From Candidatus Bathyarchaeota archaeon (GTDB taxonomy: Archaea > Thermoproteota > Bathyarchaeia > Bathyarchaeales > Bathycorpusculaceae), in the NCBI GenBank assembly GCA_026014725.1, contig JAOZHV010000017.1, forward strand, positions 1 to 37,616: 37,616 nt of DNA. The letters are read 5' to 3'. The position numbers and the translations under genes are program-made. Positions within the stretch are counted from its first letter, which is position 1. Each line of letters begins with the position of its first letter. The notes beneath the pieces are model-generated. The model saw only the letters and a program-made list of their open reading frames with translations, was not told the DNA's origin and did not search any database. This document shows positions 1 to 17,938 of the stretch, piece by piece.

Positions 1-541
<541 letters not shown>

Positions 542-8867: not shown

Positions 8868-10448
8868 TTAGTCGATTTTCCATATGCGCACCCGAACATA
8901 GTTCCAGTAGACATCGTTTGCTCCTCGGTAAAGTGTTACCGTGTTAGTTGTTGAATCAATGCGGACCAAGCCGAACTCCCCATACACCTCAGTCTTAACC
9001 AGATAAACGTCTCTACCTACACCAAAAGAGTCGGTGGAGCCTGCTATAACGTAGCCTCCGTCAGATGCTGCGACAACAGACCATGCGACATCAAAGTCTG
9101 TTCCACCGTAAGTTTTAGTCCACTGAATGTTCCCCCATGCATCTGTTTTCGCCAGCCAAAAATCGTAAGGTCCAGCAAAGGAACCAATAACACCCCCTAA
9201 CACATATCCCCCGTCTGATACGACAACCAAAGAGTAAATATCGATATCTGAATACCACTTGTTCCATTCCATGTTTCCAAGCGCGTCAGTCTTCACTAAT
9301 AGGTCGCCACAGGCAAGTAAGTATCCGCCATCCAATGTCTTGGCAAGAGACCAGCCAGTAACTCCGTTGTAGGTTTTGCTCCATTCTATATTTCCGTTTG
9401 TGTCGGTTTTAATCAAATAGACTCCAGGTCCAGAAGACCCTGTGTGACCTGCGATTGCATATCCGCCATTAGACGTTTGAACAATAGAGCACCCATAATT
9501 GAAGTTTGTTTCACCATAGGTTTTATTCCATTGCAGGTTTCCGCTTGCATCAGACTTCACCAAATACACATAAGAGCCTTCACCAAAAGACTGCGTTTCA
9601 CCTGCTATTGCGTAACCACCGTCAGTTGTCTGAACAACAGAACTCCCTGTATCGTACCTTGCTCCACCGTAGGTTTTGCCCCATTGCATATTCCCGCTGG
9701 CATCAGTCTTAACCAAATACACATCGCCGTCTCCAGCACCAGAAGAGTATGTGCAACCCACTAAAGCGTACCCGCCATCGGATGTGCGAACGACGGAAGA
9801 TGCGTAATCTTCGTTTGTTCCGCCATAGGCTTTGTTCCACTGCATGATTCCGTTTGCATCGGTTTTAACTAAATAAAAGTCGGTGCTACCGCCAAAAGAC
9901 CCTGTGGAGCCTGCGATAGCGTATCCGCCATCAGCTGCCTCGACGACACATCGGCCTTCTTCGTAGCTGGTTCCGCCATAGGTTCTGTTCCATGAGTGTA
10001 TGTATCCTGTTAAACCAAGGTATCTTTGATGTTCGCCGCCGCTTGCGGACGCCTTACCTGTTATGTCAATCAACAGGTTATCGTAGCCTAGATTATGCGT
10101 AAACGTGATTGCTTGACCTGTTTTATCGCTGATGTCAACCCAGCCACTGTCATAATCTGGCAAGTAAGGTCCTTGCGCACCTGTTGCTCCGGCTGGTCCT
10201 TGGGGCCCCTGAGCGCCTGTAGCGCCCGTTGCACCCGTTGCGCCTGTTTGTCCTGGAGACCCCTGTGGCCCTGTTGCGCCAGTGTCGCCTTTAGGTCCTT
10301 GCTCGCCTCGTAGTGGCTGCCCTTGCAAGCTCAAGTTCACTAATAAAATGGAAATTCCTGCTGCCACTACACATGCAACTAAAGTAGCCAACAAAATTAT
10401 TACAAAGAAAGTTGTTTTTTCAATCATTATTTTAGGCATTTCTATCAC
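8868..10448 (-). CDS. Membrane-anchored collagen-triplet and beta-propeller surface protein
   Basis: 526 residues. An N-terminal membrane anchor (about 13-38) is followed by 16 unbroken Gly-X-Y triplets (residues 48-95, rich in GAT, GPQ and GAQ), a collagen-like stalk. Next comes a short domain (about 101-146: [26 protein letters not shown]). Then seven repeats of about 45-50 residues, each starting W-x-K-x-Y-G and containing DGGYAIAG and YLVKTDAxGNMQ, best read as a seven-bladed propeller. The last 35 residues ([18 protein letters not shown]) look like the missing C-terminal strands of the short domain. The GTG start at 10448 overlaps the upstream gene by 17 bases; ATG at 10439 with GAGAGTGA ahead of it is an equally good start. 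Likely extracellular and adhesive. Confidence 0.85.
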
Positions 10449-11472
10449 TCTCTTTAGGCAAGCAACCTATATTTTTTGAATAATTATTTGTTTGTTTGCT
10501 TATAGCTAAACGTGGGCTGTTCTGATCACTTCCTTTAAAGTAGACAAGTAAGCCAACGCTTACTACGGCAACTACAGCAATTGGGAGTGCCAATAGTATT
10601 GGCTGAAAACCTGAATTTGGTGCAACCTGCTCAGCCTCAGCTATAGTGAAGTAAGTGATGTTTGAAATGCCCATATTGCCAAAAATATCACTAGCAAACA
10701 CGGTTATGTTATGTGAACCTATACTCAGGTCTGATAGAGTCATGTTTCCATTTATGGCAATTCTTGTTTGATTATCTAAGCTGTATCCTATCCATGAAGC
10801 AGTTGCATTGATTGTAAAATCAAGCGGTAGTGTGAATTGGGTTATGTTGTCTGGAGTGTAGGTTGTGTTTTGAGGGGGTGAAATAATAGTGGGGATTGGG
10901 ATAGGCGGATTGGGGTAGGGGTCTTTGCTCATTACTATGGGGTATTTCTGGAATGATACTGTTTTAGAATTGGGTTCTAGTTGAAAATGCATGGTTTGGG
11001 TGATATAGGTGTCGTTTGATCTTCCTGTTGAAATAGTTTTGCCATTTGTTGTGTAATATGCCATATAAGATGCCTGTGCAACCACTACTATATGTACCAC
11101 ATGTTCAGTGTTAGTTAGGTTGCTAAAAACGGCTGTATAGTCTGTTACTGTATCGCTTCTTGGGAACCTTTGTGGAAGGATGCGGGTGCCATCCAAATAC
11201 ACAGAAAGAATGTATTGCCCTACTAATGCGAATCCCTTATAGTATGAATTCCAAGACTCAGGTTTGATAATAAGAAAATCTAATTTGAAGGTGTTATCAG
11301 CATAATAATCAGAGTAATTCTTTGGGCTTCTAACCACTAGGGTTGGCAATTCAGTACTGGGCGTTTTTGGGTAAGGTATAAGGTTAGCATCTGTCACCTT
11401 AACTAGCGTCAAAGATTCAATTAAGAAAACCATCATTAAAAGAGCAGTTAGAGCAAAAACAGCTCTTCTCAT
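10432..11472 (-). CDS. Secreted, membrane-anchored protein with an Ig-like domain
   Basis: 346 residues, family not recognised. A signal peptide (about 1-29), a beta-rich external part with many N-glycosylation sequons (NYS, NLT, NDT, NITV, NMT), a proline-rich linker ([12 protein letters not shown], about 184-195), and an Ig-like domain (about 200-278: [11 protein letters not shown] ... [17 protein letters not shown]). A membrane span (about 288-310) and a short cytoplasmic tail follow. The Ig-like part resembles domains repeated in archaeal S-layer-associated proteins. The gene overlaps the collagen-like gene by 17 bases and lies 93 bases after the beta-helix gene, so it sits in the middle of the surface operon. 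Confidence 0.75.
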
Positions 11473-11565
11473 AGCCCATCATTCGTCTATAATTATTGTT
11501 TGCTTAATAGTTTTTCAGTCAAAAATTATTGACTAAACTTTGTCAAAGTTCCTTGACTAAACAAC

Positions 11566-12726
11566 TCAACATTCAAGTTTTCTTTTCAGCGTAACCATAA
11601 CAGCACATATCAACGTGAGAAATAAAACCGTAATCAGACAGGTTGCAATCTCTGGTATAATCATTGGAAATACTTCAAAATTAGGCGCTGACAGAGTTGG
11701 CATATAATTTACTTTACCGAGGGTAAAATCGTCATAGTAATCATAGATTAGTTGATCTATTATTGTTGTGTTGGTTGTTCCCCACCAATTATATGGTGCA
11801 TCAACATTGTTATCTGGGACATCATTCTTGATGTTGTAATTATGGTTTTCATAAATATTGTTAAGCAAAAGAGTTGGCGCATTATTTGAAAATAAATGGG
11901 TCAAATACAATCCAATCGTGTTATTAGTAATAGTATTATTGATAACAAATGGATTACAAGGTACAAACATTTGCCAAGCATCCAAGGTTATGCCCTTTTC
12001 GTTATTCGTAATCAAATTGTTTTCAATCACCGTTGTCAAATTAGGCCAGTGCCAACTAGGGTTATACAGCGATGTACTTACACGGATTCCAGTCGAGCAT
12101 TCGGTTACTATATTATGAGAGACAATCAAATTGGCACCAAAAACATCTATTCCCTGACCAATAACAGTATTATTAGTAATTATTCCATTACCAACCATCA
12201 CCAATCCGCCCATCAGGAAATTACCAGCAACAAGAGGCATACCAGTCGTTGTCTGGATAGAAATGGCATTGTTACAGACATTGTTAGATAACTTTGGGGA
12301 ATTATTAGCGGTTATAGTTGAGGTTAAAATGCAATTCTGGATTATGCAACCATTGCCGGTGTCTTCATTCCAGTCAGTGCTGTTTTGAGTGAAAATAATT
12401 TCTCCTCCAACAAAATTAGTGGGTCCGCTGGTACCTCCAATTGCTTGTAATGTACCGTTGACCATAATGTAGTAACCGTTGAGGTTTACTGTAACACCTG
12501 ATTCAACTATTAGTGTTACTCCATAATCAACAAGGATGTTTCCTGTAAGATTATAGGGGCTACCTGTTTTAGTCCAAGCTCTGTTTGAATTAATGATTCC
12601 GTTAACTTGTGTACCGCTACTTTGTGATGAAGCAAAGTTTAATGTCGCACCTAATAAGAGACCAATCAACACTGCAATTGTGCATAACGTGAAAGGTCTG
12701 CCTTTTTTAGTCATGCCCTTTATCAT
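11566..12726 (-). CDS. Secreted right-handed beta-helix protein (NosD-like repeats), C-terminally anchored
   Basis: About 386 residues from the ATG chosen at 12726. A signal peptide (FTLCTIAVLIGLLLGATLNFASS) precedes NosD/pectate-lyase-like coils with repeated asparagine-rich turns (IENNLITNNEKG, INNTITNNTIGL, SNNAPTLLLNNI) typical of a parallel beta-helix. A membrane span near the C-terminus (ATCLITVLFLTLICAVMV) ends in TLKRKLEC. Such proteins bind carbohydrate or form surface fibres; no catalytic residues are recognised. The reading frame is open to a TTG at 12810, but the candidate TATA box (TTTATATG, near 12778-12785) lies inside that extension, so a start at 12726 or 12714 is preferred. 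It is the first gene of the surface operon. Confidence 0.8.
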   Translation of the reverse strand: MIKGMTKKGRPFTLCTIAVLIGLLLGATLNFASSQSSGTQVNGIINSNRAWTKTGSPYNLTGNILVDYGVTLIVESGVTVNLNGYYIMVNGTLQAIGGTSGPTNFVGGEIIFTQNSTDWNEDTGNGCIIQNCILTSTITANNSPKLSNNVCNNAISIQTTTGMPLVAGNFLMGGLVMVGNGIITNNTVIGQGIDVFGANLIVSHNIVTECSTGIRVSTSLYNPSWHWPNLTTVIENNLITNNEKGITLDAWQMFVPCNPFVINNTITNNTIGLYLTHLFSNNAPTLLLNNIYENHNYNIKNDVPDNNVDAPYNWWGTTNTTIIDQLIYDYYDDFTLGKVNYMPTLSAPNFEVFPMIIPEIATCLITVLFLTLICAVMVTLKRKLEC

Positions 12727-12824
12727 CAATCTATTTATGCTGTGTGTGTCTTTAAAATTTCTGTCACCAGAATATTGCATATAAATCAATAACTTTAATC
12801 CATGTCTCAAATTCTAAACGTGTA

Positions 12825-15801: not shown

Positions 15802-16281
15802 ATGTTTCAAACAAATGAATTAAGGAGCAGGCTACCTTTCAAAGTAATCATTCCCATGCTTCTGATTTCGATACTGTGCATTGTCTCTTTTGCAACAAGC
15901 GCTACAATCTCTAACGGTTCAACATACAAAGCAATTGGCGGCGAAATCATCTCAATAACAGGAAACTACGAAGTAACCCCCATCGGCTTCGGCATCGCTA
16001 CAGAAAACGCAATAGGACGTAACACGTGGTCAAATACAATTCCGCTTACAACAGACATATTTGCAGGTAATTGGATATACACCATAAAAGTGAAAGCGCT
16101 AACAACTAATCCTGCAACGGTGTCAGTAAGCTGGAGTCAAGGCGGTAATCCAGAATTTTACCCTCTCGGTTCCATCACCATCTCAAACAACCCCACAAGT
16201 GGGCAAGAAGCAACATTCGTATTTGACACTGGCGTGCAATCGTTTGGTTCTCCTGTAGGCATATTGATTACTGTAGAATAG
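15802..16281 (+). CDS. Small secreted beta-rich protein
   Basis: 159 residues from ATG 15802 (an in-frame TTG at 15796 is less likely). The N-terminus is a classical signal peptide: basic RSRLPFK, hydrophobic VIIPMLLISILCIVSF, and small residues ATSA at the likely cleavage point. The mature part is rich in Thr, Ser, Asn and Gly with alternating beta-type hydrophobics (IIYTIKVKALT, TVSVSWSQGG, ATFVFDTGV) and no Cys. Family not recognised; it could be a secreted fibre or matrix subunit. The gene is followed closely by another secreted protein and a signal peptidase, suggesting a dedicated processing cassette. Confidence 0.65.
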   Translation: MFQTNELRSRLPFKVIIPMLLISILCIVSFATSATISNGSTYKAIGGEIISITGNYEVTPIGFGIATENAIGRNTWSNTIPLTTDIFAGNWIYTIKVKALTTNPATVSVSWSQGGNPEFYPLGSITISNNPTSGQEATFVFDTGVQSFGSPVGILITVE

Positions 16282-16398
16282 GTGGTCTGAACTTTAGAAA
16301 TCCTAAAAAAACAGGCTAAACCAATAGCCCCTTCTCCTTTTCTTTTTAGGTCAAACAAGGAACGGTTAGTCCGAACACTATTATACGCAACAATAATC

Positions 16399-16959
16399 AT
16401 GATTGCAGTGTCAATAGTTACCTCATCGTTCGCCACCCCAGCACATGTGCATTTTGAACGGTTTGAGGCTGTCAGAGGGTTATCGGTTAGTGCATATTTT
16501 GCTACCGACCCCATTGCTGATTCTCCCATCACCGTCCAGACATCTCAACACATTCACGGTTCATCAGGATTCTTCATAATTCCCAAAGAGCATTCTGCAC
16601 TCTTTATCTCTCCACAATTTTCAACAGCCACCGCCATTCCAGCTGGATGGATGCTTGTGAATCTTTGGGCTCAGCCCACAGCGGCTGGCGGCCCTGGGTC
16701 GGATGCTGCCCTTTTGGTTTCAGCTTACACAACTGATTCACTAGGAACAATTCAGAATACACTTTTTGAGAATCAAACTACTGAGCCCTTCTCTGAGGAG
16801 GGAGGGCAACTGGCAAGCATTTTTGAGGTAACAAGTGGCTTTGTTCCAGCGTCAGGCTACATTGAAGTTGTTTTGACGGCTCCTGAGTCCTCTGCCATCA
16901 AGGTTTTTTGGGGAAGCGGTCAGCCCAGTAATTTTCAGGTGATTTTCACATATGGTTGA
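16399..16959 (+). CDS. Secreted protein with uncertain start
   Basis: 186 residues from ATG 16399, but this start falls in the middle of a hydrophobic segment. The frame is open upstream to 16291 without ATG, GTG or TTG. That extension reads like a normal signal peptide N-region (ILKKQAKPIAPSPF, then RSNKERLVR, then TLLYATIIMIAVSIV). GGTGG (16281-16285) lies eight bases before TTA at 16294, as if the true start were a TTG changed to TTA, a rare start, or a sequence error. The mature part is Ser/Thr/Gly-rich and beta-type (SAYFATDPIADSPITVQTS, GYIEVVLTAPESSAIKVFW). Its stop overlaps the signal peptidase gene by 8 bases. Family not recognised. Confidence 0.65.
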   Translation: MIAVSIVTSSFATPAHVHFERFEAVRGLSVSAYFATDPIADSPITVQTSQHIHGSSGFFIIPKEHSALFISPQFSTATAIPAGWMLVNLWAQPTAAGGPGSDAALLVSAYTTDSLGTIQNTLFENQTTEPFSEEGGQLASIFEVTSGFVPASGYIEVVLTAPESSAIKVFWGSGQPSNFQVIFTYG

Positions 16960-17938
16960 AAAATGCGTGATTGCCAAAAAAGCCAAGACACCTCAGCTGA
17001 GAAAGATCAAGATAACTCGCAGATTTGTTGAGGCGGTGATTTTGTTGGTTGTCGTTGTTTTGATTTTGGCTTTGCCATTGTTTGCGGGCACCAAATCTTA
17101 TCCACTCACGGTTGTTGAGGGCAACAGTATGTCGCCGACTTTGCAAAATGGTGATTTGGTGTATTACACTAGTTGTGGCGGGAAGGTTGAGAATGGTTCT
17201 TTAATCGTTTTTTATCAGGACAATTCAGGTAATCCGTTGCTTAGTGATTTAACTCGGTCAGTTGTGATTCACCGTGTGGTAAATGTAACTGTTGGGGAGG
17301 ATGGTTTGTTGTATTATAAGACGAAAGGCGACAACAACAATGTTATGGATGCGGGTCTTATTCGGTTTGATAGCGTTTTAGGGGTTAAGGCGCTTGTGAT
17401 TCCTAAGGTTGGTTTTGCTTTTCTGTTTTTGAAGTCTCCGCAGGGGCTAATCTCTCTTGTTAGTTTAGTGGTAATTTCTTACCTTAGCATTTATGAATCA
17501 AAATTGTGGAAAGATAAAAAGAAAGCCGCATTTCTTGGGCAACTTGCACAAAAAACGCTTAACAAGGAAGTGCCTGAGGATTTTTACCGAAAGGTGGAGT
17601 TGGCAGTGCAAAATATTGAAAGCCTTGACCACACTAAACTTGAGGATGCGGATGCGCGTGCGTTGGCTACATGGCTTAAAGGCTCTCTTGGAAGTGACTG
17701 CAAAATTCATACGGTACAATGCGAAAAGTGCCATAACAGAACGGTTGTTTTAGAGGGCCCAAAACAAACATTACTAGTAGGCGTTAGCGAGAATGGAGAT
17801 TGCTCGGGATTAGTGACGCTGTTGAAGGAAAAGAATCGACCGCTATTGACCTGTGAAAACTGTTTCGGTATGAGTCACAGGGCAACTAATTTTGGGTTGA
17901 CTCAATCCGTCTTAAAATTTAAGCAGATGACACTTTAA
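16952..17938 (+). CDS. Signal peptidase I (archaeal/Sec11-like) with C-terminal cysteine-rich domain
   Basis: 328 residues, well beyond the usual archaeal signal peptidase length. The N-terminal membrane anchor (about 26-46) precedes the catalytic part: nucleophile S59 in GNSMSPTLQNGD, H107 in SVVIHRVV (archaeal/ER-type His in place of Lys), and D127/D133 in TKGDNNNVMDAG. A second membrane span (about 152-182) returns the chain to the cytoplasm. A roughly 145-residue domain follows, with C257-x2-C260 and C301-x2-C304, probably binding zinc. It overlaps the upstream secreted-protein gene by 8 bases (ATGGTTGA), so the products are translationally coupled. The cassette suggests a dedicated, SipW-like peptidase for the two neighbours. 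That role is inference. Confidence 0.85.
   Translation: MVEKCVIAKKAKTPQLRKIKITRRFVEAVILLVVVVLILALPLFAGTKSYPLTVVEGNSMSPTLQNGDLVYYTSCGGKVENGSLIVFYQDNSGNPLLSDLTRSVVIHRVVNVTVGEDGLLYYKTKGDNNNVMDAGLIRFDSVLGVKALVIPKVGFAFLFLKSPQGLISLVSLVVISYLSIYESKLWKDKKKAAFLGQLAQKTLNKEVPEDFYRKVELAVQNIESLDHTKLEDADARALATWLKGSLGSDCKIHTVQCEKCHNRTVVLEGPKQTLLVGVSENGDCSGLVTLLKEKNRPLLTCENCFGMSHRATNFGLTQSVLKFKQMTL

Follow-up and report, generated by a model that had tools for sequence, protein, structure and literature searches.

Does a signal peptidase whose gene lies directly behind those of two small secreted proteins serve these proteins in particular? Signal peptidases are usually regarded as housekeeping enzymes, and how surface structures are built and regulated in archaea without classical machinery is largely open. 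The locus that raises this question lies on a complete contig of 37,616 bases (the window, by which we mean the whole stretch of DNA analysed) from the genome of a Candidatus Bathyarchaeota archaeon (G000; 2.56 Mb in 63 contigs). Three linked genes follow one another on its + strand, in the order SEC1, SEC2, signal peptidase:

15802..16281, + strand: SEC1, a secreted protein of 159 aa (open reading frame and translation)
16280..16286, + strand: AGGTGGT, a Shine-Dalgarno-like motif overlapping the SEC1 stop (read directly from the sequence)
16291..16959, + strand: SEC2, a second small secreted protein; frame open from 16291, sole canonical start the ATG at 16399
16952..17938, + strand: signal peptidase of 328 aa (TIGR02228 score and SEC11C-like model)
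17126..17350, + strand: invariant catalytic residues S59, H107, D127 and D133 (alignment of 35 peptidases)
17498..17935, + strand: predicted cytoplasmic tail, peptidase residues 183-328 (AF2 model)

The open reading frames agree with the earlier note that two small secreted proteins precede the peptidase and that the peptidase gene (start 16952) overlaps SEC2 (end 16959) by 8 bases. Because relatives of all three genes occur in the same order in an archaeon from another family of the phylum (G506), we regard the three genes as real. Neither SEC1 nor SEC2 matched a family in Pfam, NCBIfam or PHROGs, and the possibility that they are duplicates of one another was rejected, their pairwise score lying within the range of shuffled sequences. 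Elsewhere in the window, the - strand at 8868-10448 encodes a predicted secreted protein in which a repeated beta-rich domain comes after a G-X-Y repeat of the collagen type, and the neighbours at 10432-12810 are also secreted-looking. An archaeal 16S rRNA gene truncated by the contig start occupies positions 1-541 (- strand), and a tRNA lies at 1481-1553.

Upstream, the SEC2 frame is bounded by a TGA at 16288, and the first ATG, GTG or TTG within it is the ATG at 16399. Starting at the called ATG leaves a very short leader; read from 16291, the frame supplies what a signal peptide requires, namely a basic stretch and then a span, and AGGTGGT ends 7 bases upstream of an in-frame TTA at 16294, which is the distance expected of a start codon. 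This arrangement may be due to an error in the sequence, to a start codon of an unusual kind or to a leader that really is short. The SEC2 relative in G506 occupies the same place; its BLASTP match is weak (E 0.005), and alignment of the mature parts gave a score of 87 versus 34.4 (s.d. 5.9) for shuffles, with 0 of 2000 shuffles scoring as high.

The Sec11-like character of the peptidase is upheld by its score against TIGR02228, the archaeal signal peptidase I family (81.2 bits, cut-off 51.85), by S59, H107, D127 and D133, which are invariant in 35 of 35 aligned peptidases, and by a structural model resembling human SEC11C (Z 13.4, 139 residues aligned, rmsd 4.3) in which helices 23-45 and 163-203 flank the catalytic domain. 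Judged from sequence and model, it is an archaeal or Sec11-type signal peptidase I with intact catalytic residues, predicted to cleave signal peptides. Since the source genome has three signal peptidases, this one is extra to the genome's own. The leaders of SEC1 and SEC2 end in similar contexts in the window (SFATSAT and SFATPAH), and the SEC1 relative of a second Bathyarchaeota MAG (G104) reads SFATTVS; among window frames of at least 60 aa, SFAT recurs only in one unlikely frame of 67 aa. The corresponding contexts in G506 are VAYAAS and VAFSLV. These contexts would fit one enzyme acting on both proteins, with the numbers tiny and SFAT shared by SEC1 and SEC2 in one genome.

Beyond its second helix the peptidase continues, much as the earlier note had described (a domain of about 145 residues with two CxxC pairs), into a tail of 146 residues that carries CEKC (257-260) and CENC (301-304), its cysteines being C257/C260, C284 and C301/C304. 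Stretches rich in Lys and Arg precede the first helix and follow the second, and both ends of the peptidase are therefore predicted to be cytoplasmic; the topology thus supports the proposed location of the tail. In the tail model, which is of moderate confidence, two helices (209-220 and 233-246) precede three strands within 251-278, with pLDDT of about 69-82 over residues 191-280 and about 50 or less beyond, so that the end is poorly modelled. All three tailed peptidases that we found align C257, C260 and C284. The second pair, CENC, has no conserved counterpart; the CPRC of G104 and the C-N-H of G506 line up with C284 instead. Between the window and G506 the tail regions are recognisably related (BLASTP 2e-6), Pfam zinc-ribbon matches appear only above E 0.1, and by sequence no DNA-binding family was matched. 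The tail probably pairs a small helical portion with a zinc-ribbon-like one that is built on C257, C260 and C284 and may bind metal. That it carries a cytoplasmic signal, as first suggested, is something that we infer only.

The tailed peptidase is rare, having been found in three genomes only (G000, G104 and G506). Among 256 genomes of the class, the peptidase of G104 is the sole further one to match into the tail without stops (36% identity over residues 33-275); a SEC1 relative (BLASTP 9e-13) overlaps its gene by 8 bases, and no SEC2 was seen at the locus. G506 emerged from 398 genomes drawn from the phylum, and in it SEC1 (BLASTP 8e-14), SEC2 and the tailed peptidase are consecutive, in the order of the window. 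No match beyond the catalytic part was obtained in the 81 genomes of the G506 class other than in G506 itself, nor in the 38 matching genomes out of 115 from the phylum of a Thermococcaceae MAG. The 31 other genomes of the genus gave no match to the tailed peptidase at 1e-3, most having peptidases of another kind, and because all 31 lack a detectable copy, the cassette appears to be dispensable. Several candidate relatives were set aside: an apparent match in G128 over residues 23-258 crosses stops, the open reading frame there being 207 aa, and of the longer peptidases displayed from elsewhere, many end in additional hydrophobic stretches and none, by eye, has the paired cysteines of the tail. 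A virus or plasmid origin was likewise rejected, no tailed relative being present in viral contigs, phages or plasmids; matches to the catalytic part alone came from one phage record, six plasmids and one viral contig. SEC1, too, found no relative there. On one contig of the viral collection (L227:402-1869), a TasA-like protein is encoded after a SipW-like peptidase, as read by eye.

Conserved linkage was one of the two findings that the earlier note had named as support for its reading, and it was indeed observed. Counting the window, five genomes from four families have SEC1 directly ahead of a signal peptidase, with SEC2 in between in two of them, and all three genes are together in G506. 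The peptidases themselves vary: in G176, from the window's own family, SEC1 stands before an untailed peptidase, and in G500 before one with a different cytoplasmic tail that lacks paired cysteines (L212:653-1456). The G176 locus (L219:1344-12097), where SEC1 and the peptidase lie among T2SSE, T2SSF, VirB4-like, weakly PrgI-like and TFIIB genes, is possibly an archaeal conjugation or pilus-like element. What speaks most strongly against SEC1 being strictly paired with a peptidase is that none of 22 fetched regions with SEC1 relatives (21 from family f10 and one from G216) contained a signal-peptidase motif or profile match, with the SEC1 gene of G216 lying at a contig end and some of the other regions also reaching contig ends. 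SEC1 is thus not always dependent on a linked enzyme.

To what extent do the tailed peptidases share a history? In a tree of the catalytic domain alone (45 rows, bootstrap not fully settled), the three tailed enzymes form one clade with support of 100/99, and they have a single ancestry. The two other peptidases of the source genome group with that of G032, from the same family, the other peptidase of G506 groups with those of G440 and G425 from its own class, and the G176 and G500 peptidases group together (100/99) on long branches. A clade of its own, together with the lack of a match in the 31 other genomes of the genus, indicates that the cassette descends by a line of its own and has either moved sideways or been lost often. 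A foreign base composition was rejected: the G+C content of the cassette is 0.42-0.46 versus 0.43 for the window, and this similarity gives no sign of recent transfer.

The secreted proteins had been proposed to be beta-rich and perhaps TasA-like or jelly-roll in fold. The AF2 model of SEC1, built from a 40-row alignment, bears out the former for SEC1 alone: a signal or anchor helix (13-28) is followed by an eight-stranded all-beta domain (residues 40-158), with a mean pLDDT of 82, values of 89-95 in blocks from residue 51 on and a mature domain mostly near or above 90. Foldseek gave no match under 1e-3, and the top rows of a second structural comparison were C-terminal domains of GH3 proteins (Z 7.3 over 89-90 residues), which we take to be FnIII-like and whose arrangement the tool describes as common. 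This confident model predicts an all-beta sandwich that is Ig/FnIII-like, without a significant match. The TasA or jelly-roll idea found no support for SEC1: TasA/camelysin-type Pfam families were not matched, the only hit among 40 family members being one to DUF5001 (E 0.0068), and the SEC1 profile did not align with the TasA-like neighbours of other peptidases. TasA, thread subunits and AbpA, of the archaeal bundling pili, were absent from the structural matches listed for SEC1, an absence that is uninformative on fold. A viral structure library gave nothing under E 0.001. We also rejected a relationship of SEC1 or SEC2 to the secreted proteins that are linked to other peptidases, for which profile comparisons gave probabilities under 7%; profiles did not confirm two outlying pairwise scores, one of SEC1 against a Thermococcaceae neighbour (1/500 shuffles as high) and one of SEC2 against the L119 neighbour (3/500).

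Relatives of SEC1 are known from G104, G506, G176, G500 and family f10. At a threshold of 0.01 they occur in 20 of 256 genomes of the class, 17 of these in f10, and at 0.001 in 8 of 397 genomes of the phylum, the match in G130 being weak and inside a frame of 1146 aa. Within f10 (L139-L158) they are often arranged as tandem pairs or triples, and many lie near genes for a multi-span membrane protein of about 490 aa and a glycosyltransferase-like protein, as judged by eye; these loci are possibly surface-glycoprotein loci.

The cassette can also be set beside other peptidase loci. The fetched loci contain 101 distinct peptidase open reading frames, and for 23 of these a heuristic based on hydropathy flagged a small upstream gene with an N-terminal span, of which five look false by eye and 18 are credible, a rate without wider meaning because the loci are not a random sample. 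The heuristic missed the cassette of the window itself, probably because of the SEC2 start. Some of the peptidase neighbours are plainly TasA-like by eye (L008, L175). The flagged layouts indicate that a peptidase beside its substrate is a recurrent plan, of which the cassette is one version. That the whole set recurs in an archaeon of distant kinship suggests that some cell-surface structure is made by a route dedicated to it.

We favour, with moderate confidence, the explanation that the peptidase is dedicated to its own surface-protein substrates and works in the manner of SipW and TasA. SEC1 and SEC2 would be exported through Sec, and the linked Sec11/SipW-type peptidase would cut off their signal peptides, in the window at the SFAT motif. 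Once mature, the beta proteins could build a filament or coat on the cell surface or outside it, with SEC1 the probable main subunit and SEC2 its probable partner, while the tail probably docks the peptidase to a cytoplasmic partner or tunes it. The earlier proposal of a dedicated peptidase beside surface subunits thus stands in so far as it fits the conserved linkage, its TasA-like element having found no support.

A plainer account would make SEC1 and SEC2 unexceptional secreted proteins with an accessory role or one in adhesion, the peptidase a spare broad-substrate Sec11 paralogue travelling along with them, and the tail a lineage-specific decoration. The 22 SEC1 regions without a peptidase, the commonness of the Ig/FnIII-like arrangement and the three peptidases of the source genome are all as this account would have it. 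Against it stand the linkage with SEC1 in five genomes across four families, the overlap of 8 bases between the peptidase gene and the one upstream in two of these genomes, and the distinctness of the tailed clade from other peptidases, and we consider the account fairly unlikely. Going further than the dedicated-peptidase reading, one could picture a horizontally mobile three-gene module for an undescribed surface filament or coat of Ig-like subunits without known relatives, with a zinc-binding tail that couples processing to a cellular signal; we think this rather unlikely.

The G176 locus bears on another possibility: the cassette might have come loose from a DNA-transfer or type IV pilus-like apparatus, with the peptidase maturing a pilin. 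There, SEC1 and the peptidase sit between a T2SSF gene and a short membrane protein that looks VirB2/TedC-like by eye, with the VirB4-like and weakly PrgI-like genes in the same locus, and TedC is a predicted substrate of signal peptidase I (PMC9905601). However, the pilin-like protein of G176 has no Pfam match, its peptidase is untailed and long-branched, the 19 window proteins scanned include no secretion or pilus machinery and no VirB4, VirB6 or VirB2 partners, and none were seen by eye among the neighbours in G506, G104 and G500. We hold this origin to be improbable. There is, finally, a slight chance that the peptidase has two functions, its tail sensing export load or metal and feeding back on transcription. 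SipW is reported to be bi-functional, with a second role in surface-adhered biofilms (PMC4238804), which makes a regulatory tail thinkable, here as a guess. The conservation of the tail across family boundaries and an RHH regulator gene just upstream in the window are compatible with such feedback; the lack of a DNA-binding family match in the tail, and of any RHH gene noticed by eye near the G506 or G104 loci, argue against it.

If the dedicated-peptidase explanation is correct, a peptidase reserved for two unclassified secreted families, bearing a conserved cytoplasmic tail and common to distant archaeal families, offers a compact and testable example of how processing is fitted to a substrate, and SEC1, SEC2 and the tail together provide a handle for finding more such systems. 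A literature search that left subscription journals mostly uncovered listed no archaeal peptidase with such a tail, no study of peptidase neighbourhoods in Bathyarchaeia and no paper on the cassette.

The cassette peptidase is like archaeal signal peptidase I and Sec11 (TIGR02228; human SEC11A/C) in family score, catalytic residues and fold, and unlike them in having a cytoplasmic tail of 146 residues and in not being the only peptidase of its genome. We know of no such tail in SipA of Streptococcus pyogenes. Like the cassette peptidase, SipA is a signal-peptidase homologue tied to a surface structure, being essential for pilus polymerisation according to the title of PDB entry 4n31, but it is of the bacterial type. 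The archaeal threads (Saci_0406) consist of secreted beta subunits with a predicted signal peptidase I site that are joined by donor strands, which demonstrates that archaeal filaments can consist of beta proteins with such sites; the consulted part of that paper (PMC9715654) does not mention a dedicated peptidase for threads. The Bacillus subtilis tapA-sipW-tasA operon, in which TapA and TasA need SipW for secretion (PMC4238804), differs from the cassette in several respects: the cassette peptidase scores 47.3 bits against the cut-off of 190 on NF046067 and is not a SipW equivalog, it has the extra cysteine tail, and a TasA-family Pfam match is lacking. In both systems, however, a Sec11-type peptidase adjoins two small secreted proteins.
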